A program made the position numbers and the translations under genes. A stretch of DNA of 64,000 bases from Clostridiales bacterium (GTDB taxonomy: Bacteria > Bacillota > Clostridia > Christensenellales > Borkfalkiaceae). The notes under the pieces were generated by a model. The model made no database searches. It had not been told where the DNA came from and was given only the letters and a program-made list of their open reading frames with translations. The stretch covers positions 62,001-126,000 of the forward strand of contig SVHH01000004.1 in NCBI GenBank assembly GCA_015055945.1, read 5' to 3'. Of this stretch, positions 7,717-46,925 are shown piece after piece. The stretch's first letter is position 1, and every line of letters starts with the position of its first letter.

Positions 7717-9165
7717 ATGGAACGCATACAAGAAGAATGCGGGGTTTTCGGAGTTTATTCTAAAGAAGTTCAAAACCTTGCAAGCATGACTTACTATGGA
7801 CTTTACGCACTTCAACACCGTGGTCAAGACGGTTGCGGTATCGTCGTAAACGACGGGGGCGTGTTCACCGCGCATAAAGATTTGGGTTTGGTTGGTGAAG
7901 TTTTTACTAAAGAACGCCTTGCTAAACTTGGTGTCGGTAAACTTGCAGTTGGGCACGTACGCGCAGGCGTAAAAGGCACTAACACCACCGCAAACACTCA
8001 ACCACTCGTTGTTAATCACGTTAAAGGAACGCTTGCTATCGCATACAACGGTAGCCTTATCAATAAAGATGAACTTAGAACGGGACTTGAACTTGAAGGT
8101 TCAATCTTCCACTCTACTGGCGCAACTGAAGTTATCGCGTACGAAATCATTAAAGAAAGGCTTAAAGCACCGTCTATCGAACACGCTGTCGTTAAAGCGA
8201 TGAACAATCTTAAAGGAGCGTATTGCATAGTTGTTATGTCGCCCACAAAACTTATCGCCGCGCGTGATCCGTTAGGTTTTAGACCGCTTTGTTACGGTCA
8301 AACGGAAGACGGTTCTTACGTGGTTGCATCTGAAAGTTGCGCGCTCGACGCTGTTGGTGCAAAACTTATCCGCTCGGTTAAGCCTGGTGAAGTAGTAGTA
8401 TTCGACGCAATGGGTGTTCGTTCAATCGAAGAACACTGCGGCAAGGTTAAACCTTCTTCTTGCATATTTGAATTTGTTTATAACGCTCGTCCCGACTCTG
8501 TTATCGACGGTTATTCTGTTCACGAAGCAAGGGTGGAAATGGGTAGATACTTAGCAAGAAAATATCCCGTTAAAGCCGACGTTGTTATAAGCGTTCCCGA
8601 TTCTGGTAACGACGCAGCCGTTGGTTACGCTAAAGAATCAGGCATTCCCTTTGAAATGGGTTTCTTAAAAAATAAATATATCGGTAGAACCTTTATCTTC
8701 CCCGACCAAAAGGATAGGGAAGACCAGGTTAGAAAAAAACTTAACCCGATAGCATCCGTTGTAAACGGAAAGCGCGTAATTATGGTTGACGACTCCATCG
8801 TCCGCGGCACTACTAGCGGAAGGGTTGTAAATCTTCTTCGTGAAGCGGGCGCAACCGAAGTTCACTTTATGGTTTCTTCTCCGCCTTTCCTTTATCCGTG
8901 CTATTACGGAACGGATATCAAAAAGAGAGAAGACTTAATCGCAAACAATCACACGGTTGAAGAAATTAGGCAAATGGTTGGCGTTGACACGCTCGGCTAT
9001 CTCGACTTAGAAGACTTGAAAAAGATTGCTTTAATGGACGGTCAAAACAGTTTCTGTTACGCTTGCTTTGACGGTAAGTATTCAACTGAAATTCCAGTTC
9101 CACCTAAGCCTAACAAGTACGAACAAAAGATAGACATAGTGGAAAAGACCAAGCGCCATTTATAA
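7717..9165 (+). CDS. purF: amidophosphoribosyltransferase PurF
   Basis: PurF commits PRPP to purine synthesis by adding the amide nitrogen of glutamine. After a seven-residue propeptide, Cys8 of MERIQEECGVFG is the N-terminal glutaminase nucleophile. The C-terminal half holds the PRPP site VMVDDSIVRGTT near residue 355. Cysteines in SSCIFEF, YPCYYG and the CYAC near the end match the four ligands of the iron-sulfur cluster known in the Bacillus-type enzyme, which makes it oxygen-labile. The ribosome binding site is GGAGG at 7700-7704. Its stop codon lies within the left arm of a repeat element (9159-9284). Confidence 0.95.
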   Translation: MERIQEECGVFGVYSKEVQNLASMTYYGLYALQHRGQDGCGIVVNDGGVFTAHKDLGLVGEVFTKERLAKLGVGKLAVGHVRAGVKGTNTTANTQPLVVNHVKGTLAIAYNGSLINKDELRTGLELEGSIFHSTGATEVIAYEIIKERLKAPSIEHAVVKAMNNLKGAYCIVVMSPTKLIAARDPLGFRPLCYGQTEDGSYVVASESCALDAVGAKLIRSVKPGEVVVFDAMGVRSIEEHCGKVKPSSCIFEFVYNARPDSVIDGYSVHEARVEMGRYLARKYPVKADVVISVPDSGNDAAVGYAKESGIPFEMGFLKNKYIGRTFIFPDQKDREDQVRKKLNPIASVVNGKRVIMVDDSIVRGTTSGRVVNLLREAGATEVHFMVSSPPFLYPCYYGTDIKKREDLIANNHTVEEIRQMVGVDTLGYLDLEDLKKIALMDGQNSFCYACFDGKYSTEIPVPPKPNKYEQKIDIVEKTKRHL

Positions 9166-9284
9166 GCCATATCTACGGCGTTATACGCGTAAAACTTGCG
9201 TATTTATTTGGTTGCGTACGGCAAGTACGCGCCCTGCATAAATTACTCGTTTTCCACGTCTAACTTGTATCTATGTCTTATAAA
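9159..9284 (+). repeat. stop-codon-hugging stem element, type A (A1), after purF
   Basis: The left arm 9159-9176 contains the purF stop codon and pairs with the right arm 9267-9284 at 15 of 18 positions. The boundaries fit the family pattern: TCTAC-GGCG at the left and CTTG-TAT-C at the right, with the fixed T/C mismatch at 9172/9271. An apical hairpin GCGTAC-GGCAA-GTACGC lies at 9214-9230. The body matches A2 and A3 over most of its length. Confidence 0.8.
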
Positions 9285-9398
9285 TACTGTGTATAGGCAA
9301 TCTCATCCCAAACACTTCACGAGCCTTGCCTAACTTGTTTCTTCACACTTAAAGTGATAAAAAAGAGTCTTGTCTAACTTGTATCTATGTCTTATAAA
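9285..9398 (+). repeat. type C stem element fragment (C1) with duplicated right arm
   Basis: It contains the type C segments CCCAAACACTTCACGAGCC (near 9307) and CCTAACTTGTTTCTTCAC, but lacks the type C left half. It ends in a second copy of the A1 right arm (9381-9398, identical to 9267-9284). It appears to be a later element added next to A1. The rest of the purF-purM spacer is AT-rich. Confidence 0.65.
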
Positions 9399-9464
9399 AA
9401 TAACCTAAAGTAAAAAAATAAACGAAACAATTTAATTTGATAAAAAATTACGGAGATATATAAA

Positions 9465-10499
9465 ATGGAAAAAAGTTACAGTGAAAGTTACAAAGCAGCC
9501 GGCGTTGATATTACCGCTGGTTACAAAGCAGTTGAACTTATGAAAAGCCACATCAAAAGAACTATGACTGAAGGTGTTTGCTCTGATATCGGCGGTTTTG
9601 GTGGACTTTTTGAACTCGGCAAAGTTAAAAACCCCGTGCTCGTTAGCGGTACTGACGGCGTTGGTACTAAACTTAAAATTGCATTCCTTATGGACAAGCA
9701 CAACACGGTTGGTATCGACTGCGTTGCTATGTGCGTTAACGACGTTATTTGCTGCGGCGCTAAACCTTTATTTTTCTTGGACTACATCGCGGTTGGTAAA
9801 AACGTACCCGAGCGCGTTGCATCTATCGTAGAAGGCGTTGCTGAAGGTTGCGTTCAAGCGGGCTGCGCTCTTATCGGTGGTGAAACTGCTGAAATGCCTG
9901 GTTTCTATCCCGTTGACGAATACGACCTTGCTGGTTTTGCAGTAGGTGTTGTTGACAAAAAGAAAATTCTTGATAACAAGAAGATGAAAGCGGGCGATAT
10001 CGTCATCGCACTTCCGTCTACGGGCGTTCACTCTAACGGTTTTTCACTCGTAAGAAAGGTTTTCGACGTTGAAAAGGCTGACCTTAAAACTCCGCTCGAA
10101 GCACTCGGCGGCAAGAGTCTTGGCGAAACTTTGCTTACCCCGACTAGAATTTACGTTAAACCTATCCTTGAACTCATTAAAGATGCAAAGGTTAAGGCAA
10201 TTTCACACATCACAGGCGGCGGCTTCTATGAAAACATTCCTAGAAGTATCCCTGAAGGTTTCGGCGCAAAAATTGAAAGAAAGGCTGTTAAAGTTCTTCC
10301 TATTTTCGATATGCTTGCTAAAACTGGCAACGTTTGCGAAAGAGATATGTTCAACACCTTTAACATGGGCGTTGGTATGAGCGTTGTAGTTGCTAAAGAA
10401 GATGCTGATAAAGCGCTTTCTATCTTGCGCGCTAACGGCGAAAATGCTTACATTATGGGTGAAATCGTTAAATCTTCTAACAAGATTGAAATTTGCTAA
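9465..10499 (+). CDS. purM: phosphoribosylformylglycinamidine cyclo-ligase PurM (AIR synthetase)
   Basis: PurM closes the imidazole ring of AIR using ATP. The 344-residue protein has the family signature [12 protein letters not shown] near residue 64 and the glycine-rich [10 protein letters not shown] near 250. The start ATG follows GGAGA at 9452-9456. It lies 299 bp after purF; that spacer holds two repeat elements, so purM may also depend on read-through past them. purN follows ten bases after its stop. Confidence 0.95.
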
Positions 10500-10509
10500 C
10501 GGTGAAAGA

Positions 10510-11124
10510 ATGAAAAAAACTGTTAACGTTGCTGTTTTAGTTTCGGGCGGCGGAACGAACTTACAAGCAATTATTGATTTTACCGCTGCTGGAAATTTAG
10601 AAAGTGGAAAGGTCGTTAAAGTAATTTCTAATAAGCAAGACGCTTACGCTCTACAGCGTGCACAAAATGCGGAAATTGAAACGGCTGTAGTAATTAAAAA
10701 AGGCAAAACTCAGCAAGAGTTTGAACAAGGGCTTATTGCCGAACTTGAAGCGTGTAATGCGGAAGTTATCGTTCTTGCAGGCTTTATGTGCATTCTTTCT
10801 AAAGATTTTACCGATAGATATAAAGATAGAATTATAAACGTACATCCGTCGCTTATCCCGAGTTTTTGTGGTGAAGGCTTTTATGGCTTAAAAGTACACG
10901 AAGCCGCGCTTGCAAAAGGCGTTAAGGTTACGGGCGCAACCGTTCACTTCGTAAACGAAATCCCCGACGGTGGAAAGATTATTATGCAAAAGGCGGTTAA
11001 AGTCAAAGAAAAAGACACCCCCGAAACTTTGCAAAAGAGAGTTATGCAAGAAGCAGAATGGAAAATTTTGCCCGCATCACTCGAACTCGTATGTAAAAAC
11101 ATTCTTAAAGGAGAAATAAAATGA
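10510..11124 (+). CDS. purN: phosphoribosylglycinamide formyltransferase PurN
   Basis: PurN formylates GAR with 10-formyl-THF. The 204-residue enzyme starts MKKTVNVAVLVSGGGTNLQ with the substrate loop at 12-19. The catalytic Asn and His lie in NVHPSLIPSF near residue 110, and the catalytic Asp in IPDGG near 155. The frame is open further upstream, but the ATG at 10510 has a GGTGAAAG ribosome binding site and matches the family start. The stop overlaps the next gene (ATGA), so translation is coupled to the purO-like gene. Confidence 0.94.
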   Translation: MKKTVNVAVLVSGGGTNLQAIIDFTAAGNLESGKVVKVISNKQDAYALQRAQNAEIETAVVIKKGKTQQEFEQGLIAELEACNAEVIVLAGFMCILSKDFTDRYKDRIINVHPSLIPSFCGEGFYGLKVHEAALAKGVKVTGATVHFVNEIPDGGKIIMQKAVKVKEKDTPETLQKRVMQEAEWKILPASLELVCKNILKGEIK

Positions 11125-11852
11125 GCGTAAAAGGCTTAAACAATATTGAAAACTTGCTCGAAAATAACACTTACCCTGGTAGGGGAATTATCGTTGGTAA
11201 AAGTGCTGACGGTAAGAGTGCTATGATTGCTTACTTCATCATGGGCAGAAGTGAAAACAGCCGTAACCGTATTTTTGAAAGATATGAAAGCGGTATGAGA
11301 ACTAAGGCGTTTGACGAAAGTAAACTCGTTGACCCCAGCCTTATTATATACAACCCGTATTTAGCGCTTGATAACGCTGATATCGTTACCAACGGCGACC
11401 AAACCGACACGGTTTTTAACTATATTAAAGAACACGGCGACGACGGGTACGCTTTTGAAAAATCTCTCCACACTAGAGAATTCGAGCCCGACCACCCCAA
11501 CTATACGCCCAGAATTTCTGCAATCTTAAAGTATGCGGACGGCGACTTTAAGTATAAAATGTCTATCTTAAAGAGCAGCGACGGCAATCCCGAAGTTTGC
11601 GATAGATATTTTTATAGTTACGCACCCCTTTGCGGTTTAGGACACTTTATCCACACTTACGAATGTGATGGCAATCCTATTCCGTCGTTTTACGGCGAAC
11701 CCGAAAGAGTTAAACTTCCTAACACCGCAAAAGAATTGGCGGATATCGTTTGGGGTAGCCTTAACAAAGACAACAAAGTTTCACTTTTCGTTAGAGTAGT
11801 TTCACTTGCTGACGGAAAGGCTGAAGAAATTATTATCAATAAGAACAAATAG
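11121..11852 (+). CDS. purO: IMP cyclohydrolase, PurO type
   Basis: The 243-residue protein resembles the archaeal-type IMP cyclohydrolase family, which closes FAICAR to IMP, the last step of the pathway. The recognisable part is the N-terminal YPGRGIIVG with ENSRNRIF, and PNYTPRIS in the middle. In most bacteria this activity is the N-terminal domain of PurH; that domain is missing here (see the next gene), which fits this assignment well. It overlaps purN by four bases and is ten bases from the transformylase gene. The name is by family resemblance and context. Confidence 0.78.
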   Translation: MSVKGLNNIENLLENNTYPGRGIIVGKSADGKSAMIAYFIMGRSENSRNRIFERYESGMRTKAFDESKLVDPSLIIYNPYLALDNADIVTNGDQTDTVFNYIKEHGDDGYAFEKSLHTREFEPDHPNYTPRISAILKYADGDFKYKMSILKSSDGNPEVCDRYFYSYAPLCGLGHFIHTYECDGNPIPSFYGEPERVKLPNTAKELADIVWGSLNKDNKVSLFVRVVSLADGKAEEIIINKNK

Positions 11853-11861
11853 GAGAACGGT

Positions 11862-13049
11862 ATGAACGAACTTGAACTCAAATATGGTTGTAACCCCAAC
11901 CAAAAACCTTCAAAAATCTTTATGGCAGACGGTTCTGATTTGCCTATCAAAATCCTTTCAGGTAAACCTGGTTATATTAACTTTTTAGATGCTTTTAACT
12001 CTTGGCAACTCGTTAAAGAATTAAAAGAAGCAACTGGCAAACCTTCTGCTGCATCATTTAAGCACGTAAGCCCCGCAGGTGCTGCCGTTGGCGAAAAACT
12101 TTCTGAAACCTTAAAGAAAGTATGTTTCGTTGACGATATCGAAGGCTTGGACGATTCTCCTATCGCTTGCGCTTACGCTAGGGCAAGGGGAACTGATAGA
12201 ATGAGTTCTTTCGGCGACTGGATTGCACTTTCTGATGAATGTGATGAAGTTACCGCAAAAATTATTAAGCGTGAAGTTTCCGACGGCGTTATCGCTCCGT
12301 CATATTCACCCAAAGCGCTTGAAATCTTAAAAGAAAAGAGAAAGGGCGCGTATAACGTTGTTCAAATCGACCCTAATTACGTTCCCGCTGAGCGCGAAAC
12401 TAAGCAAGTTTTCGGTATCACTTTTGAACAAGGTAGAAACAACTTCAAAATTGATAGAGAACTCGTTACCAAAGAAATCGTAACTCAAAACAAGAACATG
12501 CCCGAGAGCGCAGTTATCGATTTAATCGTTGCGCTCATCACCTTAAAATATACTCAATCAAACTCAGTTTGCTTTGCACACAACGGTCAAGCAATCGGCG
12601 TAGGTGCTGGTCAACAATCAAGAATTCACTGCACTCGTCTTGCTGGCAGTAAGGCTGACAACTGGTTCTTAAGACAAAGTGAAAAGGTATTAAATCTTCC
12701 TTTCCTTCCCACGCTCGGCAGACCTGATAGAAACAACGTTATCGACATCTATATTTCAGACGATGCTGAAGACGTTTTGGCTGAAGGTAAGTGGCAACAA
12801 TACTTCACCGTTAAACCCGAAGAATTAACCAGAGCGGAAAAGAAAGAAATTCTTTCTAAAATCAGCGGCGTTGCGCTCGGCTCTGACGCGTTCTTCCCGT
12901 TCAGCGACAACATTGAAAGAGCGGTTAAGAGCGGTGTAAGTTATATTGCACAACCCGGTGGCTCTGTAAGAGACGACTTGGTTATTAAGGCGTGCGATGA
13001 TAACGATATTATTATGTCGTTTACTGGTATGCGCTTATTCCACCACTAA
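11862..13049 (+). CDS. stand-alone AICAR transformylase (PurH C-terminal domain type)
   Basis: The 395-residue protein is an AICARFT domain without the N-terminal MGS-like cyclohydrolase half of ordinary PurH (about 510 residues). It transfers the formyl group of 10-formyl-THF to AICAR. The catalytic Lys-His pair is in SFKHVSPAGAAVG near residues 64-76. The C-terminal part carries QPGGSVRDD and the final TGMRLFHH typical of PurH. A GGAG ribosome binding site precedes the ATG. With the PurO-type gene before it, it supplies the two PurH activities as separate proteins. Confidence 0.9.
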   Translation: MNELELKYGCNPNQKPSKIFMADGSDLPIKILSGKPGYINFLDAFNSWQLVKELKEATGKPSAASFKHVSPAGAAVGEKLSETLKKVCFVDDIEGLDDSPIACAYARARGTDRMSSFGDWIALSDECDEVTAKIIKREVSDGVIAPSYSPKALEILKEKRKGAYNVVQIDPNYVPAERETKQVFGITFEQGRNNFKIDRELVTKEIVTQNKNMPESAVIDLIVALITLKYTQSNSVCFAHNGQAIGVGAGQQSRIHCTRLAGSKADNWFLRQSEKVLNLPFLPTLGRPDRNNVIDIYISDDAEDVLAEGKWQQYFTVKPEELTRAEKKEILSKISGVALGSDAFFPFSDNIERAVKSGVSYIAQPGGSVRDDLVIKACDDNDIIMSFTGMRLFHH

Positions 13050-13066
13050 GATTTTGGAGAGATATA

Positions 13067-14338
13067 ATGAGAGTTTTAGTAGTAGGTAACGGCGGAAGAG
13101 AACACGCCATTATTCAATCATTAAAAAAGAGTAAGAAAATTGATGCTCTCTATGCAATCGCGGGTAACGGCGGCATAGCAAACGATGCTATTACCGTTGA
13201 TATGGACGTAAAAAACGTTCAAGCGGTTGCTGACTGGGCAGAACAAAATAAAATTGATTTTGCAGTAGTTGCACCTGATGATCCGTTGGTACTCGGTGCG
13301 GTAAACTTGCTTAATGAAAAGGGTATACCGTGCTTTGGACCGTCAAAGGAAGCGGCAATTATTGAAGGTAGTAAAATCTTTTCTAAAAACTTAATGAAAA
13401 AGTACAATATTCCCACTGCGGAATACGAAACTTTTTCTAATATGCAAGATGCTTTTAACTATCTTGACACCAAAAGCGCACCTATTGTTGTAAAGGCGGA
13501 CGGGCTTGCGCTCGGTAAAGGCGTTATTATTGCAAACACTATTGAAGAAGCAAAAGACGCCGTTAAGAGCATGATGGAAGATAAAGTTTTCGGTGCGTCA
13601 GGCGCTAACGTAGTTATCGAAGAGTTCTTGACTGGCCCTGAAGTTTCAGTTTTATCTTTCACGGACGGCAAAACGCTTGTTCCTATGATTTCATCAATGG
13701 ACCACAAACGCGCGCTCGACTTTGACCAAGGATTAAACACTGGTGGTATGGGTACTGTTGCACCCAACCCTTACTATACTGAAGAAATAGCGAAAGAGTG
13801 TATGGAAAAAATCTTCCTTCCCACAATGGCTGCTATGAATAAGGAAGGTAGAACCTTTAAGGGTTGCTTGTACTTTGGGCTTATGCTTACGCCCAACGGA
13901 CCTAAGGTAATCGAATATAACTGCCGCTTTGGCGATCCCGAAACTCAAGTAGTGTTGCCGCTTTTAGAAAGCGATCTTTTAGAGATTATGATGGCGGTTG
14001 CTGAAGAAAGATTAGATAAGGTTGAAGTTAAGTTTGCGGACAAATCTGCTTGCTGCGTTATTATGGCAAGTGAAGGTTATCCCGCAAGTTATAAAAAAGG
14101 CTTTGAAATTACTTTTGATACCGATAGAGAAAACGTTTTCGTTGCGGGCGCACGCCTTGTAGACGGTAAACTTTTAACTAACGGCGGAAGAGTTTTGGGT
14201 GTAACCGCAATCGATGAAACTTTGAAAGGTGCAATCGATAAGGCTTATGAAAAAGTATCAAAAATACATTTTGAAAATGCGTACTGCCGTAAAGATATCG
14301 GTGCGCGTGCATTAAAAGCATACGGAGAACAAAAATAA
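13067..14338 (+). CDS. purD: phosphoribosylamine-glycine ligase PurD
   Basis: PurD joins phosphoribosylamine and glycine with ATP to make GAR. The 423-residue protein begins VLVVGNGGREHAI, the classic PurD N-terminus. An ATP-grasp fold follows with VVKADGLALGKGV near residue 140, DHKRALD near 207, and the metal-binding EYNCRFGDPETQ near 284. The stop overlaps the ATG of purL by one base (TAATG). The length is normal. Confidence 0.95.
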   Translation: MRVLVVGNGGREHAIIQSLKKSKKIDALYAIAGNGGIANDAITVDMDVKNVQAVADWAEQNKIDFAVVAPDDPLVLGAVNLLNEKGIPCFGPSKEAAIIEGSKIFSKNLMKKYNIPTAEYETFSNMQDAFNYLDTKSAPIVVKADGLALGKGVIIANTIEEAKDAVKSMMEDKVFGASGANVVIEEFLTGPEVSVLSFTDGKTLVPMISSMDHKRALDFDQGLNTGGMGTVAPNPYYTEEIAKECMEKIFLPTMAAMNKEGRTFKGCLYFGLMLTPNGPKVIEYNCRFGDPETQVVLPLLESDLLEIMMAVAEERLDKVEVKFADKSACCVIMASEGYPASYKKGFEITFDTDRENVFVAGARLVDGKLLTNGGRVLGVTAIDETLKGAIDKAYEKVSKIHFENAYCRKDIGARALKAYGEQK

Positions 14339-28885: not shown

Positions 28886-29386
28886 ATGGAAGAAAAGAAA
28901 GAAAAAACTGTGAAAGAAAAGGTTTCCGCTAAAGAAAAAGCGCTCTTGAAAGAAAATGAAGAATTAAAAGTGCAAGTGGAAGAATATAAAGATAAGTGGA
29001 TGCGCAACGTTGCCGAGTTCGACAATTACAAAAAACGCAACGCTAAACTTTGGCAAGATGCTTTTAATGAAGGCGTTGCAAACGTGGTAGTTAAAATTTT
29101 ACCCGTTGGTGATAATCTCGACTGGGCACTAACCTTAGGGCTTGATGAAAAAACCGCTGAAGGTATTAAAAACGTTAAGCGTAAATATCTTGAAACTTTA
29201 GAAAGTTTAGAAATTGAAGAAATTGACCCCACTGGTCAACCCTTCGACCCCAACATCGCTGAAGCCGTTATGCAAGTTGAAGGCGCTGAAGGCGAGACGA
29301 GCGACACGGTTAAGCAAGTGTTCCAAAAAGGCTTTAAAAAAGGGGATAAGATTATACGTTATGCAAAGGTAAGCGTAGTAAAATAA
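28886..29386 (+). CDS. grpE: nucleotide exchange factor GrpE
   Basis: GrpE releases ADP from DnaK. The 166-residue protein has a long N-terminal coiled coil (about 5-45), WMRNVAEFDNYKKR near 38, and the C-terminal beta domain with VEGAEGETSDTVKQVFQKGF near 132-151. A GTG at 28883 is directly in front; the ATG at 28886 is preferred after AAGGACG. It lies 12 bases after hrcA. A stem element begins at its stop codon and separates it from dnaK by 365 bp, which is unusual within this operon. Confidence 0.94.
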   Translation: MEEKKEKTVKEKVSAKEKALLKENEELKVQVEEYKDKWMRNVAEFDNYKKRNAKLWQDAFNEGVANVVVKILPVGDNLDWALTLGLDEKTAEGIKNVKRKYLETLESLEIEEIDPTGQPFDPNIAEAVMQVEGAEGETSDTVKQVFQKGFKKGDKIIRYAKVSVVK

Positions 29387-29511
29387 TTTTAAACCATATT
29401 TGCGGCGTGATACGCGTAAAACTTGCGCTTTTATTTGGTTACGTACAAAAAGTACGTGCCCTGCATAAAATGCTCGTTTTCCACGTCTGACTTGCAACTA
29501 TGTCTTAAAAT
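29386..29511 (+). repeat. stop-codon-hugging stem element, type A (A2), after grpE
   Basis: The left arm 29386-29403 starts at the last base of the grpE stop and pairs with 29494-29511 at 15 of 18 positions. The left boundary is TTTGC-GGCG and the right is CTTG-CAA-C, with the fixed T/C mismatch at 29399/29498. The apical hairpin ACGTAC-AAAAA-GTACGT (29441-29457) differs from A1 at one base on each side, and the pairing is kept. Confidence 0.82.
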
Positions 29512-29560
29512 GAGTTATAAAACGAGCCTTGCCTAACTTGTTTCTAAACCTTATTTTAGA
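29512..29560 (+). repeat. stem element fragment (type C right end)
   Basis: ACGAGCCTTGCCTAACTTGTTTC matches the right end of type C elements. It ends in CTTGTTTCTAAACCTTATTTT (29537-29557), which is repeated exactly as the right end of B1 (29647-29667). No left half is visible. Confidence 0.6.
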
Positions 29561-29667
29561 AAAATAAAATTTATGAACTGCGCATTTCTGCGTTAACCAC
29601 ACTCGACAATATGCATGCTATTGCCTTCGGTGGTTGCCTTGAACTGCTTGTTTCTAAACCTTATTTT
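29561..29667 (+). repeat. stem element, type B (B1), upstream of dnaK
   Basis: The arms 29561-29578 and 29650-29667 pair at 14 of 18 positions. The left boundary is TGAAC-TGCG and the right CTTG-TTT-C. The inner stem AACCAC (29595-29600) and GTGGTT (29630-29635) encloses CAATA/TATTG around ATGCATGC. The remaining bases to dnaK are AT-rich with a GGAG ribosome binding site. Confidence 0.78.
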
Positions 29668-29751
29668 GATTGACTTGCAATTATACTTAAAAAATAAAAA
29701 AACATTATATATAAAAAATAAATTTGAAAATTATAGGAGATTAAATATATT

Positions 29752-31548
29752 ATGAAAACTATTGGTATTGACTTAGGTACTACTAACTCTTGCGTAGCGG
29801 TTATGGAAAACGGTGAACCCGTTGTTATCGCTAACGCTGAAGGTTCAAGAACTACTCCGTCAGTAGTTGCTTTCCAAAAAGACGGCGAAAGACTTGTTGG
29901 TCAAGTTGCAAAGCGCCAAGCCGTTTCTAACCCCGACAGAACCGTTCAATCTATCAAAAGACATATGGGCTCTGATTATAAAGTTACTATCGACGGCAAA
30001 AATTATACCCCCCAAGAAATTTCTGCAATGGTTTTAACCAAACTCAAAAAGGATGCTGAAAGTTATCTCGGCGGTACTGTAACCGATGCGGTTATTACCG
30101 TTCCCGCATATTTCTCTGACAGCCAACGTCAAGCAACTAAAGATGCTGGTAAAATCGCTGGTCTTAACGTTCTTCGTATCATAAACGAACCGACCGCGGC
30201 TGCACTCTCATACGGTCTTGACAAAGAAGGCAAAACCCAAAAGGTTATCATTTACGACCTTGGTGGTGGTACTTTCGACGTTTCTATTATGGAAATCGGC
30301 GACGGCGTATTTGAAGTTTTGGCAACGCACGGCAACAACATGCTCGGTGGCGACGACTTCGATAAGCGCGTTATGGATTACTTGGCTGCTGAATTTAAGC
30401 AAAAAGAAGGCATTGACCTTACTAACGACAAACTCGCTATGCAACGCTTAAAAGAAGCGGCTGAAAAGGCTAAAATCGAACTTTCTGGTATGAGCAAGAC
30501 CAACGTAAACTTGCCCTTTATTACCGCTGATGCAACCGGTCCTAAGCACTTAGACGTTGATATTACTAAACAAAAATTCGATGCTTTAACTGCTGACTTA
30601 GTTGCTGCAACCGTAACCCCCATGCAAAACGCTATGAAAGATGCTGGTCTTTCATACTCTGAAATCGATAAGGTTATTTTAGTTGGTGGTTCAACTCGTA
30701 TTCCCGCAGTTATCGACGAAGTTAGAAAAGTTACTGGTAAAGAACCTTTCAAGGGTATCAACCCCGACGAATGCGTTGCTATCGGTGCTGCTATTCAAGG
30801 TGGCGTTCTTTCTGGCGAAGTTAAAGACGTACTTCTTCTCGACGTAACTCCGTTATCACTCGGTATTGAAACTTTGGGCGGCGTTTGCACTAAACTTATC
30901 GAAAGAAACACTACTATCCCCGTTAAGAAATCACAAGTATTCTCAACCGCGGCTGATAACCAAACCGCCGTTGATATTCACATCTTACAAGGCGAAAGAG
31001 AATTTGCTAAAGACAACAAAACTCTCGGCAACTTCCAACTCACCGGTATTGCTCCCGCTCCCCGTGGTATTCCCCAAATCGAAGTTACTTTCGATATCGA
31101 CGCTAACGGTATCGTAAACGTTTCTGCTAAGGACTTGGGCACTGGTACTTCTCAAAACATCACTATCACTTCTTCAACCAACCTTTCTGATGCTGATATT
31201 GAAAAGGCTGTAAACGAAGCAAAACAATACGAAGAAGAAGATAAAAAACGTAAAGAAGTTATCGACAACCACAACAAACTTGACGGACTTATCTTCTCAG
31301 TTGAAAAGACCGTTAAGGATGCTGGCGATAAACTCACCGATGAAGACAAAGCAAAGGTTGAAGCAGCCGTTAAAAAGGCTAAAGAAGAACTCGCTTCTAA
31401 CGACAACGATAGAATGGTTAAAGCAACCGAAGAACTCTCTAACGAAGTTCAAGGCGTATTCGCTAAACTCTATCAACAACAAGCACCCAACGGTGATCCT
31501 AACGCTAATGGTGGCGCTGGGGCTGGTGGCGAAGAATTCCATCAATAA
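29752..31548 (+). CDS. dnaK: chaperone DnaK (Hsp70)
   Basis: DnaK is the ATP-driven Hsp70. The 598-residue protein starts [17 protein letters not shown]. It has [10 protein letters not shown] near 168, the second phosphate loop GGSTRIPAV near 308, and the interdomain linker [14 protein letters not shown] near 363. The substrate domain and helical lid follow. The length is typical of Bacillota DnaK. The C-terminus is Gly/Ala-rich and ends EEFHQ. A stem element begins directly after the stop. Confidence 0.97.
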
Positions 31549-31674
31549 TTTTAACCGCGAATAAACTGCGTTATGCTGCGTTACTGCTTCGTGTTTGGAT
31601 TTCGATAACCAGACGGTTAATCTCACCCCAAACACTTCGCGAGCCTTACCTAACTTGTTTCTTCACGCTTAAAA
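31549..31674 (+). repeat. stop-codon-hugging stem element, type C (C2), after dnaK
   Basis: The left arm 31549-31566 begins at the base after the dnaK stop and pairs with 31657-31674 at 15 of 18 positions, with the fixed T/C mismatch at 31562/31661. Boundaries are TAAAC-TGCG and CTTG-TTT-C. The inner stem GTGTTTGG (31591-31598) pairs with CCAAACAC (31628-31635). A further right-end-like piece, CTTGCTTGTTTCTAAAATCT, lies near 31689. The rest up to 31803 is AT-rich. Confidence 0.83.
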
Positions 31675-31803
31675 CAAGTGTTTCAAAACTTGCTTGTTTC
31701 TAAAATCTAAAAATATAATTCTAATTAAATATCAAAATTCACTACTGAAAGGCAAATTTCTTGCCTTTCAGTTTGTGCGTTATTAAAACAAAAGAAAACT
31801 TTT

Positions 31804-35737: not shown

Positions 35738-35747
35738 GGAGAAAATT

Positions 35748-36089
35748 ATGGAAAACTGTTTGTTTTGTAAAATTATCGCGGGCGAAATTCCTGCAACAAA
35801 GATGTATGAAGATGAAAATATGCTTATCTTTAAGGATATCGACCCTAAGGCAAAAAACCACTATTTATGCGTTCCCAAAAGCCACTTTAAACTCCTTGCC
35901 GATATGACCGAAGAACAAGCGGAAATGTTGAAGGCGTGCTTTAAGAAAATTCCTACTCTTGCCAAAGAATTAGGCTTAGAAAACGGTTACCGTTTAGTAA
36001 TTAACCAAGGCGACGACGCTGGTCAAACCGTATTCCATTTGCATATACATATACTTTCTGGGCAAAAGATGGGGTGGACCCCCGCTTAA
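35748..36089 (+). CDS. HIT-family protein, HinT type
   Basis: The 113-residue protein is a histidine-triad nucleotide hydrolase, which cleaves purine nucleoside phosphoramidates. CLFCKIIAGEIP at 4-15 and the triad HLHIHIL near 97 are plain. The frame opens earlier inside mtaB, but AAGGAG at 35738-35743 fits the ATG at 35748. The stop codon lies in the left arm of stem element B2. Confidence 0.93.
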   Translation: MENCLFCKIIAGEIPATKMYEDENMLIFKDIDPKAKNHYLCVPKSHFKLLADMTEEQAEMLKACFKKIPTLAKELGLENGYRLVINQGDDAGQTVFHLHIHILSGQKMGWTPA

Positions 36090-36188
36090 AGCCATATATA
36101 CTGCGCATTTCTGCGCTAACACCCTTGTCAATATGCATGCTATTGCCTTCGGGTGTTACCTTGAACTGCTTGCATCTATGTCTTTAAG
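36085..36188 (+). repeat. stop-codon-hugging stem element, type B (B2), after hinT
   Basis: The left arm (from 36085) contains the hinT stop and pairs with the right arm ending at 36188: CTTAAAG with CTTTAAG, then CATA with TATG. The boundaries are TATAC-TGCG and CTTG-CAT-C. The inner stem AACACCC (36118-36124) pairs with GGGTGTT (36151-36157), where B1 has AACCAC/GTGGTT. The body otherwise matches B1. Confidence 0.83.
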
Positions 36189-36318
36189 TAGTGTAATCAG
36201 TTAGTTAATTACTTATTATCAGCGATATAACGAAACAGTTTATAAGCAAAAAGTAAAATAATTAGTGAAATTATATTGTTTTGGGGTATAATTATACTTA
36301 AATTATTTAACAAAATGC

Positions 36319-37264: not shown

Positions 37265-37287
37265 GCATAAATCAATAAATAAAAAAA

Positions 37288-37525: not shown

Positions 37526-37557
37526 AAACGCACCTAAAACTTTATAATAATTTCTAT

Positions 37558-37615: not shown

Positions 37616-37637
37616 GTTTTATATTAAGGAGAAAAAT

Positions 37638-38018: not shown

Positions 38019-38021
38019 TAA

Positions 38022-38062
38022 AAAAGCCCTTCGCTAAACTTTAGCGAAGGGCTTTGATTTTT
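38022..38062. terminator. bidirectional terminator between paralog 3 and rubrerythrin
   Basis: AAAGCCCTTCGCTAAA pairs with TTTAGCGAAGGGCTTT around a single base, flanked by A and T runs on both sides. Confidence 0.92.
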
Positions 38063-38067
38063 AAAGA

Positions 38068-38604: not shown

Positions 38605-38693
38605 AATAATTCTCCTTAAGGTATATGTTATAATTATTATAATGTAAAAGGAAAAATAAGTCAATATGAAAATAAAAAATATTTTTAACACTA

Positions 38694-38723
38694 TTGACTT
38701 GTTTTTATATATAATGTTATAAT
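38694..38723 (+). promoter_or_regulatory. promoter of the M50-like gene
   Basis: TTGACT (38694-38699) and TATAAT (38718-38723) are 18 bases apart, divergent from the rubrerythrin promoter. Confidence 0.65.
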
Positions 38724-38755
38724 TATTTCATAATTTAACTTTAAGAGGAAAGTTT

Positions 38756-39541: not shown

Positions 39542-39546
39542 AAAAT

Positions 39547-39577
39547 AAAACCCTGCTTTTTTTAAGCGGGTTTTTTA
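39547..39577 (+). terminator. terminator after the M50-like gene
   Basis: AAACCCTGCTT pairs with AAGCGGGTTT, followed by Ts. Confidence 0.8.
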
Positions 39578-39675
39578 TAGTATTATTCTCGCTTTTTTAT
39601 AAGTTTAACCGGAAATTTGTTTGACAAATTTTCGGGGGGTATACTGTATATATAATAATGTTTAGGGGGAGACTA

Positions 39676-41862: not shown

Positions 41863-41872
41863 ATAATAAAAC

Positions 41873-41907
41873 AAAAAAACCTACTTCGTTTGAAGTAGGT
41901 TTTTTCT
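41873..41907. terminator. bidirectional terminator between the lipoprotein and glyS
   Basis: AAAACCTACTTC pairs with GAAGTAGGTTTT, with A and T runs on the two sides; the flanking genes are convergent. Confidence 0.9.
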
Positions 41908-41919
41908 TTTTACTTAAAA

Positions 41920-43329
41920 TTAAAACTTAATCTTTTCAGCGATATAGTTTTTAAGTTCAGCAATAGGAATTCTAACTTGTTCCATAGTATCTCTATCACG
42001 AACGGTTACTGCGTTATCTTCTAAAGTATCGAAGTCAACGGTTATGCAGTAAGGAGTACCGATTTCGTCTTGACGGCGATATCTTTTACCGATTGAACCT
42101 GATTCGTCAAAGTCAACGGGGAATGACTTGATAAGGTCGGTGTAGAGTTCGTCAGCCTTTTCAGAGAGTTTCTTTGAAAGGGGAAGAATTGCTGCCTTAA
42201 AGGGTGCAAGCGTGGGGTGCAAGTGAAGAACTGTTCTAATATCGTTCTTTTCCGCGTCGATAACTTGTTCTTCAAACGCGTTGCAAAGTACTGCCAAAAC
42301 AGTTCTTTCTACGCCCAAACTAGGTTCAACAACGTAGGGGATATATCTTTCGTTAGTTTCTTGATCAAAGTAAGATAAATCTTTACCAGAAACGTTTTTG
42401 TGTTGAGTTAAGTCGTAATCAGTTCTATCGGCAATACCCCAAAGTTCGCCCCAACCGAACGGGAATAAGAATTCAAAGTCGGTGGTTGCTTTTGAGTAGA
42501 AACTGAGTTCTTCGGGGTCGTGGTCACGAAGTCTTAATTTTTCATCTTTAATACCGATAGATAATAGCCAGTTATGGCAGAATGAACGCCAGTAAGTAAA
42601 CCATTCTAAGTCAGTACCAGGCTTGCAGAAGAATTCAAGTTCCATTTGTTCAAATTCACGCACGCGGAAGATAAAGTTACCGGGGGTGATTTCGTTACGG
42701 AAAGATTTACCGATTTGCGCGATACCGAAAGGCATTTTCTTTCTAGTTGTTCTTTGTACGTTTACAAAGTTAGTGAAGATACCTTGTGCGGTTTCAGGGC
42801 GGAGATATACGGTATTTTTAGCATCTTCAGTTACGCCTTGGAAAGTTTTGAACATAAGGTTGAACTGACGAATGTCAGTAAAGTTATGCTTGCCGCAAGT
42901 GGGGCAAGGAATATTATGTTCATCAATGAACGCTTTCATTTCTTCGTGAGAGAACGCGTCGATAGGTTTAGAAAGTTCAAAGTCGTTTTCTTTTGCCCAG
43001 TCTTCAATAATCTTGTCCGCTCTAAATCTTTCATGACATTCTTTACAGTCCATAAGTGGATCTGAAAAGCCTGCTAAGTGTCCAGATGCTACCCAAGTTT
43101 GCGGGTTCATCAAGATTGCAGCGTCTAAGCCGACGTTGAGTTTATTTTCGGTAACGAATTTTTGCCACCAAGCGCGCTTAACGTTGTTTTTAAGTTCAAC
43201 GCCTAAAGGACCGTAGTCCCAAGTGTTAGCAAGACCGCCGTAGATTTCACTACCGGGGAAGATAAAACCTCTGCCTTTGCAGAGAGCAACGATTTTTTCC
43301 ATATTGTTGTTTACTTTTTGTTCTGCCAT
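41920..43329 (-). CDS. glyS: glycine-tRNA ligase, alpha-2 type
   Basis: This class II enzyme charges tRNA-Gly. The 469-residue single-chain form contains [23 protein letters not shown] near 23-45, [14 protein letters not shown] near 175, [21 protein letters not shown] near 205 (motif 2), and the C-terminal anticodon domain. The frame opens earlier, but GAGG lies nine bases before the ATG at 43329. It is divergent from glnS. Confidence 0.95.
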
Positions 43330-43506
43330 TATATTTTCCTCATAAAACAAATAATAACTTGCTAATTATTGTACATTATATTAAAAATTTAGTCAAGTAA
43401 ACAAGTTGATTAAATAAAATATTTAAATTTGCTTTTGTATTTTAAATATTTGTGGTATACTTATTGCATAATTATTTTCAGTTTGATTTTAAAAGGACTT
43501 TTTACT

Positions 43507-45147
43507 ATGGTTGAAGCAACAAACTTTATCGAACAAATCATTAACGAAGAATTAGAAAGCGGAAAGGTAAACAGCGTTTACACTCGTTTTCCGCCCGAAC
43601 CTAACGGTTATCTTCATATCGGCCACGCAAAATCTCTTTGCATTAACTTCGGTATGAAAGATAAGTATAACGGTAAATGCAATCTTTTCTTTGACGACAC
43701 TAACCCGTCTAAAGAAAAAACCGAGTTCGTTGACGCTATCAAGGCGGACATCAAGTGGCTCGGCTTTACTTGGGACAAAGAAAATTACGCATCAGATTAC
43801 TTTGAAAAAATTTACGACTTTGCCGTTGAACTCATCAAAAAAGGCAAAGCGTTCGTTTGCGATATGACGCCTGAAGAAATCAGCGCAAACCGTGGTAACC
43901 TTACCACCCCTGGTAAAGAAAGCCCGTATAGAAACCGCTCTATTGAAGAAAACCTTGCGCTCTTTGCTGATATGCGCGCGGGTAAGTTTGCTGACGGCGA
44001 AAAGTGTTTGAGAGCAAAAATCGATATGGCGTCGCCCAACATCAACATGCGCGACCCCGTTATCTATAGAATTTTACGCCAAACTCACCATAGAACTGGG
44101 GATAAGTGGTGCATTTATCCTATGTACGATTACGCTCATCCTATTTGCGACTACTTGCAAGGCGTAACCCACTCACTCTGCACCTTAGAGTTTGAAGACC
44201 ACCGCCCCCTTTACGACTGGGTTGGTATTGAACTTGGTTTTTCACCAAAGCCTAGACAAATTGAGTTTGCACGCCTTAACGTAACTAATCTCGTTATGAG
44301 CAAGCGTTATCTTAAAAAACTCGTTGAAGACGGCTCTGTTGACGGTTGGGACGACCCCAGAATGCCCACCCTTACGGGTTTAAGAAACCGCGGCGTTCCC
44401 GCTGATGCGTTAAAAGATTTTTGCGCAAGAATAGGTGTAAGCAAGGCTAACTCTGAAGTTCAAATCAGTTATTTAGAAGCGTGCATCAGAGAGTACTTAA
44501 ACGCTCACGCTGAACGCGCTATGGGTGTTTTGAAACCTTTGAAGGTTACTATCACTAATTATCCCGACGGTCAAACTGAACAACTTGACTTTGAAATTAA
44601 CCCCAACGAAGAAGTTAAGCGTACCAGAAAGATTGATTTTTCTAAAAATATCTACATTGATGCTGATGACTTCTCTCTCAACCCGCCGCCCAAATACTTC
44701 CGCTTAAAGAAAGATGGTTACGTTCGCTTAAAGAGCGCGTATATCATTAAGTGTGATGAAGTTATTACCGATAAAGACGGTAACGTGGTTGAACTTTTGT
44801 GTTCTTATATTCCCGAAAGCAAGAGTGGCAACGATACTTCTGGTATTAAGTGCAAGGGCGTTATTCAATGGGTTAACGCTGACACCGCAGTTGACGTTGA
44901 ACTTCGTCAATACGGTTACCTTTTGAATGATGAAGAATATTCTGGTCAAGATTTTTCTGAACGTATGAATAAAAACAGTGTTACCATCCACCAAGGCAAG
45001 GTTGAACCCTATATCTTTGAAAACGATTACGACGCACCCTATCAACTTATGCGCACCGGTTACTTTAAGCGCTTAAACGTAAAGGGTAAAGAAATCATAA
45101 GTGAAATTGTTTCTTTAAAGGATAATTTCAATCTTAAGAACAAATAA
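43507..45147 (+). CDS. glnS: glutamine-tRNA ligase
   Basis: This class I enzyme charges tRNA-Gln directly. The 546-residue protein has PPEPNGYLHIGHAKS with the HIGH motif near 37 and the KMSKS-like VMSKRYL near 264. The C-terminal anticodon-binding beta domains (from about 345) identify it as GlnRS. Many Clostridia instead use GatCAB, so a GlnRS is worth noting. Upstream frame is open, but AAAGGAC fits the ATG at 43507. The last three sense codons and the stop form the left arm of a stem element. Confidence 0.95.
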   Translation: MVEATNFIEQIINEELESGKVNSVYTRFPPEPNGYLHIGHAKSLCINFGMKDKYNGKCNLFFDDTNPSKEKTEFVDAIKADIKWLGFTWDKENYASDYFEKIYDFAVELIKKGKAFVCDMTPEEISANRGNLTTPGKESPYRNRSIEENLALFADMRAGKFADGEKCLRAKIDMASPNINMRDPVIYRILRQTHHRTGDKWCIYPMYDYAHPICDYLQGVTHSLCTLEFEDHRPLYDWVGIELGFSPKPRQIEFARLNVTNLVMSKRYLKKLVEDGSVDGWDDPRMPTLTGLRNRGVPADALKDFCARIGVSKANSEVQISYLEACIREYLNAHAERAMGVLKPLKVTITNYPDGQTEQLDFEINPNEEVKRTRKIDFSKNIYIDADDFSLNPPPKYFRLKKDGYVRLKSAYIIKCDEVITDKDGNVVELLCSYIPESKSGNDTSGIKCKGVIQWVNADTAVDVELRQYGYLLNDEEYSGQDFSERMNKNSVTIHQGKVEPYIFENDYDAPYQLMRTGYFKRLNVKGKEIISEIVSLKDNFNLKNK

Positions 45148-45258
45148 ACTGCGCAATACTGCGTTAACTGCTTAGCGTTTTGACTTGCGAATTCCAAAAA
45201 GGTTAATCTCACCCAAAACGCGTCGCGAGCCTTGTCTTGCTTGTTTCTTTGTTCTTAA
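45134..45258 (+). repeat. stop-codon-hugging stem element, type C (C3), overlapping the end of glnS
   Basis: The left arm 45134-45149 (TTAAGAACAAATAAAC) covers the last codons and stop of glnS. The right arm 45243-45258 (GTTTCTTTGTTCTTAA) pairs at 15 of 16 positions; the only mismatch is the fixed T/C (45145/45247). The inner stem GCGTTTTG (45175-45182) pairs with CAAAACGC (45214-45221), differing from C2 with pairing kept. Confidence 0.88.
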
Positions 45259-45261
45259 TAA

Positions 45262-45384
45262 AATAAGGGCTTATATACTGCGTGATACGTGTAAAATTTG
45301 CGCTTTTATTTGGTTACGTACGGACGTACGCGCCCTGCATAAAATGCTCATTTCCCGCGTCTAACTTGTATCTAAACCCTTATT
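45262..45384 (+). repeat. stem element, type A (A3), in tandem after C3
   Basis: The arms 45262-45278 and 45368-45384 (AATAAGGGCTTATATAC with GTATCTAAACCCTTATT) pair at 15 of 17 positions. The boundaries are TATAC-TGCG and CTTG-TAT-C. The body matches A1 and A2, including the apical GTACG/CGTAC hairpin. It starts three bases after the end of C3. Confidence 0.83.
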
Positions 45385-45410
45385 GAAAAAACGTTTCTTT
45401 TTCCTTAAGA

Positions 45411-45450
45411 AAAAAATAAGGGCTTAAATACTGCGTGATACGAGTAAAAC
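45411..45450 (+). repeat. stem element fragment (type A left end, A4)
   Basis: It repeats the first part of A3 (AATAAGGGCTTAAATACTGC and on to GATACGAGTAAAAC) and then stops. The sequence just before it (GTTTCTTTTTCCTTAAG, near 45393) resembles the C3 right arm, so the region has been partly duplicated. Confidence 0.65.
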
Positions 45451-45472
45451 ACTAAAAATCAATAGGAAAATT

Positions 45473-46642
45473 ATGCTTGATTTTATTTATAACACCCCTA
45501 CTAAAGTGTTCTTTGGTAAGGACACTCATAAACAAGTAGGTAGAATTATCGCCGAATACGGTTATAAAAAAATAATGATGCAATACGGTAAAGGCAGCAT
45601 TAAAAAGAGCGGGCTTTATGACGATATTATGGCATCACTAAATGATTATGGAATTGAAGTTGTTGAAATGGGCGGCGTTGAGCCTAACCCTAAACTTTCT
45701 TTCGTGCGCGAAGCCGTTAAGGTTGCTAAGAAAGAAAAGGTTGAACTCATTTTAGCGGTTGGCGGCGGCAGTACGCTCGATTCTTGTAAGGGTACTGCGC
45801 TTGGCTCTGCAAACGAAGAAGACGTTTGGGATTTTCATATCGGCAAAGCAGTTCCTAAAGCAGCACTTCCCGTGGCTTGTATTTTAACGCATGCTGCGGC
45901 TGGGAGCGAAATGAGCAATTCAGCCGTTCTTACTAACACTGAAATCAATATGAAAAAGGGTGTTTCAACCGAGTTTAATAGATGTAAATTCGCAATTATG
46001 AACCCCGAACTAACCTACACGGTAAGTAAATATCAAACGGCGTGCGGAATAGTCGATATGATGACGCATACTTTAGAGAGATATTTTACCGTTTGCCCCG
46101 ATACCGATATTACCGATAGAATTGCTGAAGGCTTGCTTTCGTCTATTATAGAAAACGCTAAAATCGTTATGGAAAACCCTACCGATTACGATGCAAGGGC
46201 AAACATAATGTGGGCATCAAGTTTAGCGCATAACGGCTTGACTGGTTGTGGTAGAGAAAATTTACTTGCAGTTCATCAGTTAGAACACGCAGTAAGCGGT
46301 ATTTACGACAGCGTTGCACACGGCGCAGGGCTTGCCGTTTTATATCCCGAATGGGGTAAATATATGGTTAAGCATAACCCCGCTCGCTTTGCACAATTTG
46401 CGCGTAGAGTAATGGGCGTAAAGAATAGCGACGATATAACAGCGGGTATGCTAGGTATGGAAAAACTCCGCGAATTCTTTAATTCTTTGGGTATGCCGTC
46501 AAAACTTAGTGAATTCGGTATTGAAAAGGATAGTGTTGAAGAATTATCAAACGCTTGCACTCATAATAAAAGTCGCGCTGTAAAGAGTTATATTCCGCTC
46601 GACTTTGAAGTGTGCAAAGAAATTTTTAACAAATGTTTTTAA
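45473..46642 (+). CDS. iron-containing alcohol dehydrogenase (BdhA-like)
   Basis: This 389-residue type III alcohol dehydrogenase probably reduces aldehydes with NAD(P)H. The nucleotide site GGGSTLDSCKG lies near 99-109, and the metal ligands Asp and His are in GIVDMMTHTLERYF and in HQLEHAVSG...SVAHGAGLA (about 195-285). It is closest in pattern to the butanol-dehydrogenase group. The preceding GGAAAA is a weak ribosome binding site. The stop codon lies in the left arm of C4. Confidence 0.9.
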   Translation: MLDFIYNTPTKVFFGKDTHKQVGRIIAEYGYKKIMMQYGKGSIKKSGLYDDIMASLNDYGIEVVEMGGVEPNPKLSFVREAVKVAKKEKVELILAVGGGSTLDSCKGTALGSANEEDVWDFHIGKAVPKAALPVACILTHAAAGSEMSNSAVLTNTEINMKKGVSTEFNRCKFAIMNPELTYTVSKYQTACGIVDMMTHTLERYFTVCPDTDITDRIAEGLLSSIIENAKIVMENPTDYDARANIMWASSLAHNGLTGCGRENLLAVHQLEHAVSGIYDSVAHGAGLAVLYPEWGKYMVKHNPARFAQFARRVMGVKNSDDITAGMLGMEKLREFFNSLGMPSKLSEFGIEKDSVEELSNACTHNKSRAVKSYIPLDFEVCKEIFNKCF

Positions 46643-46880
46643 CCCATATTTACTGCGCATTTCTGCGTTACTGCTTAGCGTTTTGACTTGCGAATTCCAA
46701 AAAGGTTAATCTCACCCAAAATAAAAAAGGGTATCCCGAAAAAGATTTTGCGAAGCAAAAGATTTTTTGGGAAGAGGAAGAACAATTGCAAAATCTTGCA
46801 CTTTGTTTTTATCAAAGTGCTGATATTGCTTATTAGTTCTGACGAGCGAGCCTTGAACTGCTTGCAACTATGGCTTAAAA
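46637..46880 (+). repeat. stem element, type C (C4), with a central insertion
   Basis: The left arm 46637-46651 includes the dehydrogenase stop and pairs with 46866-46880 at 13 of 15 positions; the right boundary is CTTG-CAA-C. The first 75 bases match C3 closely, up to CTCACCCAAAA (about 46711-46721). A segment of about 120 bp then interrupts it, and the type C end resumes at GCGAGCCTTG (46846). The insertion contains the perfect hairpin GCACTTTG...CAAAGTGC (46798-46820). Confidence 0.75.
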
Positions 46881-46890
46881 CTTTAGGAGT

Positions 46891-46925
46891 AAACTGCGCA
46901 TTTTAAGCGTTAACTGCTTCGTGAA
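46891..46925 (+). repeat. stem element fragment (left end)
   Basis: TAAACTGCGCATTTTAAGCG followed by TTAACTGCTTCGTGAAAAC matches the left boundary and first part of type C elements, then stops near a terminator. No right half is visible. Confidence 0.6.

Follow-up and report, generated by a model that had tools for sequence, protein, structure and literature searches.

The window analysed here, a 64-kb stretch (64,000 nucleotides, nt) of contig SVHH01000004.1 from a Clostridiales bacterium (assembly GCA_015055945.1), carries eight complete copies of a repeat that folds into a hairpin at the ends of genes. We consider it somewhat more probable than the alternatives together, at roughly 55%, that this repeat is a mobile or formerly mobile, multi-copy hairpin of ~105-130 nt that resides at the 3′ boundary of a gene and uses the end of its host gene as half of its stem. 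For such an element, folded shape would matter more than sequence in recognition, and the folded form is presumably what is selected. The element would settle at the 3′ boundary of a gene (a stop codon) or of a transcript (the T-tract of a terminator), pointing in the same direction as the gene, and would probably have spread by transposition. The left strand of its basal stem of 17-18 nt would be partly or wholly host sequence, often with the stop codon and sometimes with the last codons, and the right strand would be the complement, remaining complementary while the host sequence changes. A previous, sequence-only reading of the window had recognised the repeat family; our analysis confirms this observation and supports its interpretation in part. 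The use of the host gene end as a left arm that is tracked by the right arm went unnoticed at that time.

Host gene ends as one strand of the stem

We define the left arm as the 18 nt ending in the first conserved C, and the right arm as the 18 nt starting from the G of a conserved CTTG. Arms pair with their own partners at 0.863, versus 0.568 when partners are swapped between copies (200 shuffles, maximum 0.597), although arm positions were picked for maximal pairing and the own scores are therefore somewhat inflated. At arm positions 8-11, the corresponding values are 0.708 and 0.292.

The same relationship can be followed at individual genes, and at two of them the right arm tracks codons that are specific to a species. 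Fifteen queA ends were chosen for having an element start, of which 11 have a right arm and 10 are distinct. Over positions 5-17 of these 10 distinct pairs, own arms pair at 0.854 versus 0.57 for arms swapped between orthologues, and for seven of the 10 left arms no other right arm pairs as well as their own. The left arm at these sites encodes the last residues of the protein (FSFGDACFIF*, ...MFIE*, ...MMIL*, ...CLFL*), and other queA genes of the genus have no element.

A second informative gene ends in GKIQRNKL* and is presumably acyl-CoA-synthetase-like, a name we base on the C-terminal motif. Among nine such gene ends, two have no element there, one has an element in another register and six have their stop at arm position 16. 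Two third-codon positions (AAT/AAC and AAG/AAA) appear among these six sites in all four combinations, and comparison by eye finds that the right arm carries the matching base for both positions in all six. Moreover, the last 18 coding bases of one element-less end are identical to those of an element-bearing relative, and thus the left arm at this site is host sequence. At stop registers near 0 and 6, the inner dozen bases of the left arm look element-borne, because element-less spacers lack them. We rejected the view that the element always brings the TTATAA of its left arm with it, since this motif is native in a site without an element. An A × C mismatch recurs at a single arm position in all six sites with the stop at position 16. 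This suggests that they descend from one old insertion and therefore that not every site represents a separate one.

Further information on the origin of matched arms comes from 18 pairs of copies, some from one genome, others from different genomes and two of them in tandem, whose bodies are at least 95% identical and whose flanks differ. In several of these pairs (for example L002/L045 in the genome of the window), the left arms differ at up to nine of 18 positions and the right arms are matched anew. Like bodies with different matched arms suggest that arms may be rebuilt when an element moves, and gene conversion of bodies between resident copies could give the same pattern. We favour a history in which arms have been kept matched by compensation in place, together with occasional movement.

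The main rival to this view is that the element is a selfish DNA hairpin that remakes its stem each time it inserts, with no need for a host function. Its 3′ end would fold back on arrival and serve to copy ~18 nt of flanking target sequence, and the right arm would then be an inverted copy of the new site. The 18 copy pairs, some of them with rematched arms, speak for such a process, and the stem has a sharp 18-nt edge (see below) that resembles the footprint of an enzyme. However, the T × C mismatch and internal loops conserved in the hairpin would not survive simple copying, and the shared A × C mismatch and the codon tracking in the six acyl-CoA-synthetase-like sites point to change in place. 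Gene conversion between resident copies could also yield identical bodies with different arms. We regard fold-back copying as an unlikely explanation.

We can also offer, tentatively and at clearly less than even odds, a more specific proposal in which a mobile hairpin arrives at a stop codon or transcript end, uses its target as half of itself and carries the last codons of the host, inverted, as its right arm. This inverted copy would arise either by fold-back copying or by enforced compensation, and it would clamp the element to the gene. The signature of such a gene-clamped hairpin would be an 18-nt ruler and a fixed mismatch.

Copies in the window

The eight complete copies had been located by the sequence-only reading, and all are present within 2 nt of the positions it gave, all on the plus strand. 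They are listed here together with associated fragments.

9159-9284, plus strand: type A copy at the purF stop (TAA 9163-9165 within the left arm); arms 9159-9176 and 9267-9284
9299-9398, plus strand: fragments, with a type C right half at 9299-9353 and a second exact type A right end at 9372-9398; repeat families D6 and D12
29386-29511, plus strand: type A copy from the last base of the grpE stop; arms 29386-29403 and 29494-29511
29526-29557, plus strand: lone right-end fragment with the same arm as the copy at 29561-29667; repeat family D1
29561-29667, plus strand: type B copy in the grpE-dnaK spacer; arms 29561-29578 and 29650-29667
31549-31674, plus strand: type C copy straight after the dnaK stop (TAA 31546-31548); arms 31549-31566 and 31657-31674
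36084-36189, plus strand: type B copy over the hinT stop (36087-36089); arms 36084-36101 and 36172-36189
45132-45260, plus strand: type C copy over the glnS stop (45145-45147 within the left arm); arms 45132-45149 and 45243-45260
45261-45385, plus strand: type A copy in tandem with the type C copy at the glnS stop; arms 45261-45278 and 45368-45385
45410-45449, plus strand: type A left-half fragment; repeat family D8
46636-46881, plus strand: type C copy over the alcohol dehydrogenase stop (46640-46642), broken by a different sequence of ~120 nt; arms 46636-46653 and 46864-46881

Copies without an insert are 106-129 nt long. The 18-nt arms of all eight pair at 14-16 of 18 positions, and the fifth arm pair is a T opposite a C in every copy. 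The upstream genes are purF, grpE, dnaK, a gene for a HinT-type protein, glnS and an iron-type alcohol dehydrogenase gene, among which the identities of grpE, hinT and the alcohol dehydrogenase are clear matches, yet fall under the NCBIfam cut-offs. These are the same six genes at whose stop codons copies had been reported to begin; what varies is the distance from the element start to the stop. Likewise, the end rules proposed from the window (T-NNN-C-[TG]GCG at the left and CTTG-NNN-C at the right) hold within it, and relatives vary more widely.

The insert that breaks the alcohol dehydrogenase copy (window ~46722-46850) is a second small hairpin-rich sequence whose start lies near AAAAAAGGGTATCCCG. 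The same type of sequence also terminates another copy in this genome, and it is present beside the match in L057.

A long hairpin with conserved mismatches and a sharp edge

The three types had been thought to share nothing except their ends. In fact, types A, B and C each form one long hairpin, and they have in common complementary arms, a basal stem of 17-18 nt, the T × C mismatch and fixed internal loops. RNAalifold yields a single long unbranched hairpin for type A (44 pairs) and for type C (42 pairs), with 19 pairs changed on both sides in each. When 70 distinct type C copies from relatives are examined in rows aligned to a covariance model, which tilts the result towards structure, 93.7% of cells are paired versus 71.9% after shuffling. 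Changes on both sides occur in 575 cells versus 160, and the covariation score is 0.529 versus 0.146, with none of 500 shuffles reaching the observed value. When partners are shifted by 1-3 columns, pairing drops to 28-47%.

A larger set was assembled by using an apical pattern that located 125 type C copies in the fetched loci. From these, 102 copies were anchored. The other 23, in which the number of arm pairs was below 11 of 18, were left out, and the set is confined to type C. Unpaired positions count among the conserved ones. For example, the T × C mismatch at the fifth pair is present in 91 of the 102 copies, and the first two positions of the internal loop C[TG]GCG / CTTG are Watson-Crick in just six and eight of the 102. 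A similar internal loop reappears one stem further inward in the alignments.

Measured outward from the first C-G pair, 14 of arm positions 1-17 have a pairing of 0.81-1.0 in the 102 copies, the exceptions being 0.08, 0.51 and 0.68 at arm positions 4, 8 and 10. It is 0.62 at the eighteenth position and falls to the background value of 0.23 just past it. The anchors were chosen for maximal pairing, and this choice has no reach past the arm. Copies from other genera behave similarly, with pairing of 0.57 at the eighteenth position and 0.23 beyond (30 of 37 copies, seven weakly paired ones being left out), and 29 of the 30 lack pairing at the fifth position. A helix that ends so sharply despite unrelated arm sequences hints at the footprint of an enzyme or another protein.

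Position and orientation at gene ends

Among 100 anchored type C copies with enough sequence context, 63 have an upstream stop codon that ends within -3 to +19 of the arm start. Another 18 start at the T-tract of a hairpin that resembles an intrinsic terminator by a simple rule of our own, seven lie behind another copy and 12 fall elsewhere, including at least one copy (L116) at a queA end with a broken frame. The terminator-associated copies depart from the siting at gene stops described for the window. The stop codons of the 63 stop-phased copies end in a limited number of registers, namely -1 to 2, 4 to 7 or 16 in 60 copies and 11 or 13 in three. The commonest are arm position 6 (16 copies), 16 (13 copies), -1 to 1 (18 copies) and 4 to 5 (10 copies).

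The flanking genes of the 100 copies are (+,+) in 73 cases, (+,-) in 17, (-,+) in four and (-,-) in one, and five copies have a flanking gene on one side alone. Because convergent spacers say nothing about orientation, the telling ratio is 73:1. Stop-phased starts account for 49 of the 73 co-directional copies, versus 9.8 expected if starts were uniform over the free spacer, and the largest stop-phased count in 20,000 simulations of uniform starts was 22.

These biases are also what would be expected of a cis-acting structure at the 3′ end of mRNA that is not itself mobile and has spread by recombination, serving for example mRNA stability within operons. The REP element between malE and malF sets mRNA stability between operon genes in this way. 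ERIC provides a second example (PMC2229807). Orientation follows the gene, the stop codon is often part of the stem, and copies occur between co-directional neighbours such as grpE-dnaK and purF-purM. However, 18 of the 100 copies sit just behind terminator-like hairpins, and one copy in a relative (L193, 6593-6729) is directly behind a T-box leader. Furthermore, G.U pairs on the mRNA strand make up 30 of 2606 standard pairs (by arithmetic) in copies from relatives, versus 17 of 314 in 15 tRNAs for which bracketed pairs alone were counted. The 30 G.U pairs compare with 65 A.C mismatches on the same strand, and these counts leave out two columns that are fixed as U.G on the sense strand (in 66 and 65 of 70 copies) and that point the other way. 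So few wobble pairs look unusual for an RNA and would fit a hairpin made of DNA. The sequence-only reading had offered a non-autonomous mobile element or a 3′-untranslated-region RNA as alternatives. A purely mRNA-based role is weakened by the copies behind terminators and by the rarity of G.U pairs relative to A.C mismatches, and we consider it improbable.

Several loci illustrate the arrangement at terminators. In L193 (6333-6729), L103, L246, L261 and L295, elements start in or near the T-tract of a terminator whose stem reads GTCTCAAAG.../...GAGACGGG. The terminator in L193 belongs to the T-box leader, and the element is thus located between the leader and the downstream gene.

Gain and loss at orthologous sites

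Among the genomes listed, the grpE-dnaK spacer carries a type A element in the genome of the window and in G019, a type C element in G009 and an A-like element in G052. In each case the element follows immediately on the same stop codon. The spacer is merely short in G005, G016, G018, G044 and others. The 3′ side of dnaK has a like pattern, in that related species have differing types or none. Upstream of purM, a copy is present in one of the 27 genomes listed, in a spacer that presumably follows purF in each. These comparisons support repeated gain and loss of the element, in keeping with the mobile alternative of the sequence-only reading.

Family size and distribution

The element family is real and larger than it appeared from the window. 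A DNA search of the whole genome (G000, 1.45 Mb in 18 contigs) with one query per type gave 21 matches for type A, 18 for type B and 33 for type C (E ≤ 0.01, fragments included). The covariance model R1, which represents type C and was built on 15 aligned copies, finds 52 matches in this genome at E ≤ 0.1, and further copies thus exist beyond the window. Across the genus, R1 matches range from 0 to 43 per genome and 16 of 25 genomes are positive, whereas 16 other members of the order included in the same search are all negative. A wider search of the order found 23 of 151 genomes positive at E ≤ 1e-4, representing 14 of 91 genera with the home genus included; these counts are lower bounds, as 23 candidates were scored per genome. 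Among the other 22 genomes that were positive, 12 had copies that we inspected. An exact apical pattern occurs in at least 107 stretches in a collection of 84,980 species with one genome each, and all 80 matches listed are from Clostridia or from Clostridiales metagenome-assembled genomes (MAGs), with titles that often mention the ruminant gut.

Rfam gave no match over the window elements at the gathering score, none over the elements in 11 loci at the same score, and none to an element in the region 29300-31800 at E values up to 1. Neither a lack of further copies nor an Rfam match, which the sequence-only reading had named as refuting, was thus observed. A literature search found no description of such a family. 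Two apical patterns had no exact match in the 2.9 million viral contigs of viral_contigs, a search that did not extend to the phage collection, and one type A copy had no match among plasmids.

A blind scan for complementary arms and end motifs, applied to the window and to 20 stretches from relatives, recovered 50 structures, of which 30 are shorter than 200 nt. The same scan on block-shuffled sequence recovered none. This difference and the number of matches to each type in the genome exclude chance. It could still be asked whether the elements are ordinary intrinsic terminators or chance palindromes, given that they fold and are found at gene ends. However, inspection by eye reveals no T-tract after the right arms, the pairs covary across genera, and shuffled sequence yields no such structures. 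We therefore consider this explanation refuted.

Some copies are arranged in tandem arrays (L188, L193, L195, L197 and L364). In several arrays the units end in the same right arm, and the left arms of the inner units decay. In another genome (G107), two full hairpin elements (L371, 3952-4078 and 4270-4396) lie in rRNA orientation inside stretches that resemble 5S rRNA, behind an intact 5S rRNA gene (3685-3801); the 5S-like flanks were judged by eye.

Observations that weigh against a mobile, host-paired hairpin

A number of findings count against the interpretation that we prefer, beginning with the inflation of own-arm scores and the shared A × C mismatch noted above. Four decayed queA remnants without a recognisable right arm still score 7-9 of 18, compared with 14-16 for intact sites, and the remnants therefore provide a gauge of the inflation that results from choosing the best arm position. 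Sites that lack an element could be losses. The arms of type C copies, when summed over positions without a fixed mismatch, contain 67 A.C versus 23 G.U combinations, which would place the wobble pairs on the antisense strand, and the arms of distant copies (19 A.C versus 18 G.U) have no antisense lean. Folding energy does not separate the strands. Before a shuffle control, 97 of 102 copies give a more stable fold for the antisense strand; after shuffling, the mean z is -4.9 for sense and -5.2 for antisense, with antisense lower in 21 of 40 sampled copies. Because the shuffles show an effect of composition, we dropped folding energy as a test of strand. Similarly, the counts do not support the use of G.U pairs as proof of a sense RNA.

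The mobilising enzyme that our interpretation calls for is also not apparent in the 25 genomes, several of which are incomplete. The Y1 transposase domain PF01797 is present in five (G000, G007, G018, G023 and G024) without relation to copy number, and is absent in the copy-rich genomes G006, G009, G016, G019, G020 and G022, some of which are 58-86% complete. Reverse transcriptase PF00078, which a SINE-like repeat borne by a retroelement would call for, is found in four (G013, G015, G023 and G024), again without relation to copy number, and among these G015 alone has more than one element copy (12). Integron integrase TIGR02249 does not exceed its cut-off in any of the 25. Finally, scans of up to 6 kb in the window and the 20 stretches from relatives gave no autonomous version with the same arms. 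This hunt returned arrays and fragments, as well as five pairs separated by more than 1 kb. Two of these connect arms that belong to separate copies, and the other three seem unrelated.

One open Y1 transposase gene exists in the genome of the window (G000:C5:124870-125226, L201). Inspection for target-site repeats by eye found that an outer TTAA or TATA is often palindromic and that there is no consistent direct repeat. A palindromic TTAA/TATA target duplication fits some copies (purF and grpE) and fails at the queA and acyl-CoA-synthetase-like sites.

Comparison with known systems

Integron attC sites are variable in sequence, conserve their fold and follow a gene in that gene's orientation. 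The elements share each of these features, being structure-conserved, sequence-variable hairpins just behind stop codons, and might accordingly be proposed to be recombinase sites that act as folded single-stranded DNA. However, there is no integrase over the cut-off in the 25 genomes, 21 of which have weaker tyrosine-recombinase matches. The neighbours that we checked are housekeeping genes, no cassettes were seen, and in a non-systematic comparison the attC boxes have other conserved bases than the elements. This possibility is mostly refuted and we regard it as very remote.

By analogy, the family appears to work most like the REP/BIME and ERIC hairpins, with which it has gene-end placement and conserved stem mismatches in common. 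REP/BIME sequences are intergenic imperfect palindromes that are selected for structure and conserve mismatches in their stems (PMC8266576), as the present elements appear to do. The same source describes REPs as 20-50 nt long, mostly headed by GTAG and associated with the Y1 transposase TnpA-REP (RAYT) (PMC8266576). In contrast, the elements described here are ~127 nt, have a flank profile without a fixed head, and occur in copy-rich genomes that mostly lack Y1_Tnp. They also differ in sharing an 18-nt basal stem with a host gene.

ERIC is a 127-bp repeat whose effect on upstream mRNA depends on orientation (PMC2229807). It is described as having short terminal repeats, ends with TA and duplications of the target (PMC2229807), and its insertion at gene 3′ ends has been reported (PMC10969869). 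Length (~127) and gene-end placement are thus similar. ERIC/IRU sequences of enterobacteria are set apart from the present family, which has Clostridia MAGs as hosts and arms that vary by copy and follow the host.

Correia/NEMIS and RUP-type miniature inverted-repeat transposable elements are small non-autonomous repeats of ~100-160 bp with long stems (PMC10969869, PMC2229807), and RUP is tied to an insertion-sequence transposase through shared terminal repeats (PMC2229807). The elements resemble them as small repeats that fold into a long stem, but have no fixed terminal repeat (own arms 0.863, swapped 0.568) and no partner insertion sequence that we could find. Extending the REP/ERIC analogy, we infer that the hairpins may act at gene ends in transcript processing or stability, or as a protein-binding site.

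Implications for bacterial hairpin repeats

Hairpin repeats in bacteria are usually viewed as fixed sequences that are dropped between genes. Here, in several genera, repeat and gene form one structure, and coding changes, even synonymous ones, are mirrored in a non-coding arm. If this is true, either gene ends are under a selection that affects codon choice or the element spreads by adapting to its target, and we know of no enzyme for target-adapting spread. Questions long associated with REP and ERIC sequences, such as why they are placed at gene ends and why in one orientation, become testable with hundreds of natural copies. Should the reading hold in which host sequence is copied into the right arm, the family would be a new kind of element.

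Other features of the window

Two further observations concern parts of the window outside the element copies. A ZMP/ZTP riboswitch lies at 7011-7093, upstream of purF and purM. In addition, an exact 35-nt repeat is present at 2492-2526 and 2674-2708, one copy of which overlaps a tRNA-Ser gene (2428-2519, minus strand), and this repeat is possibly the scar of an integration site.

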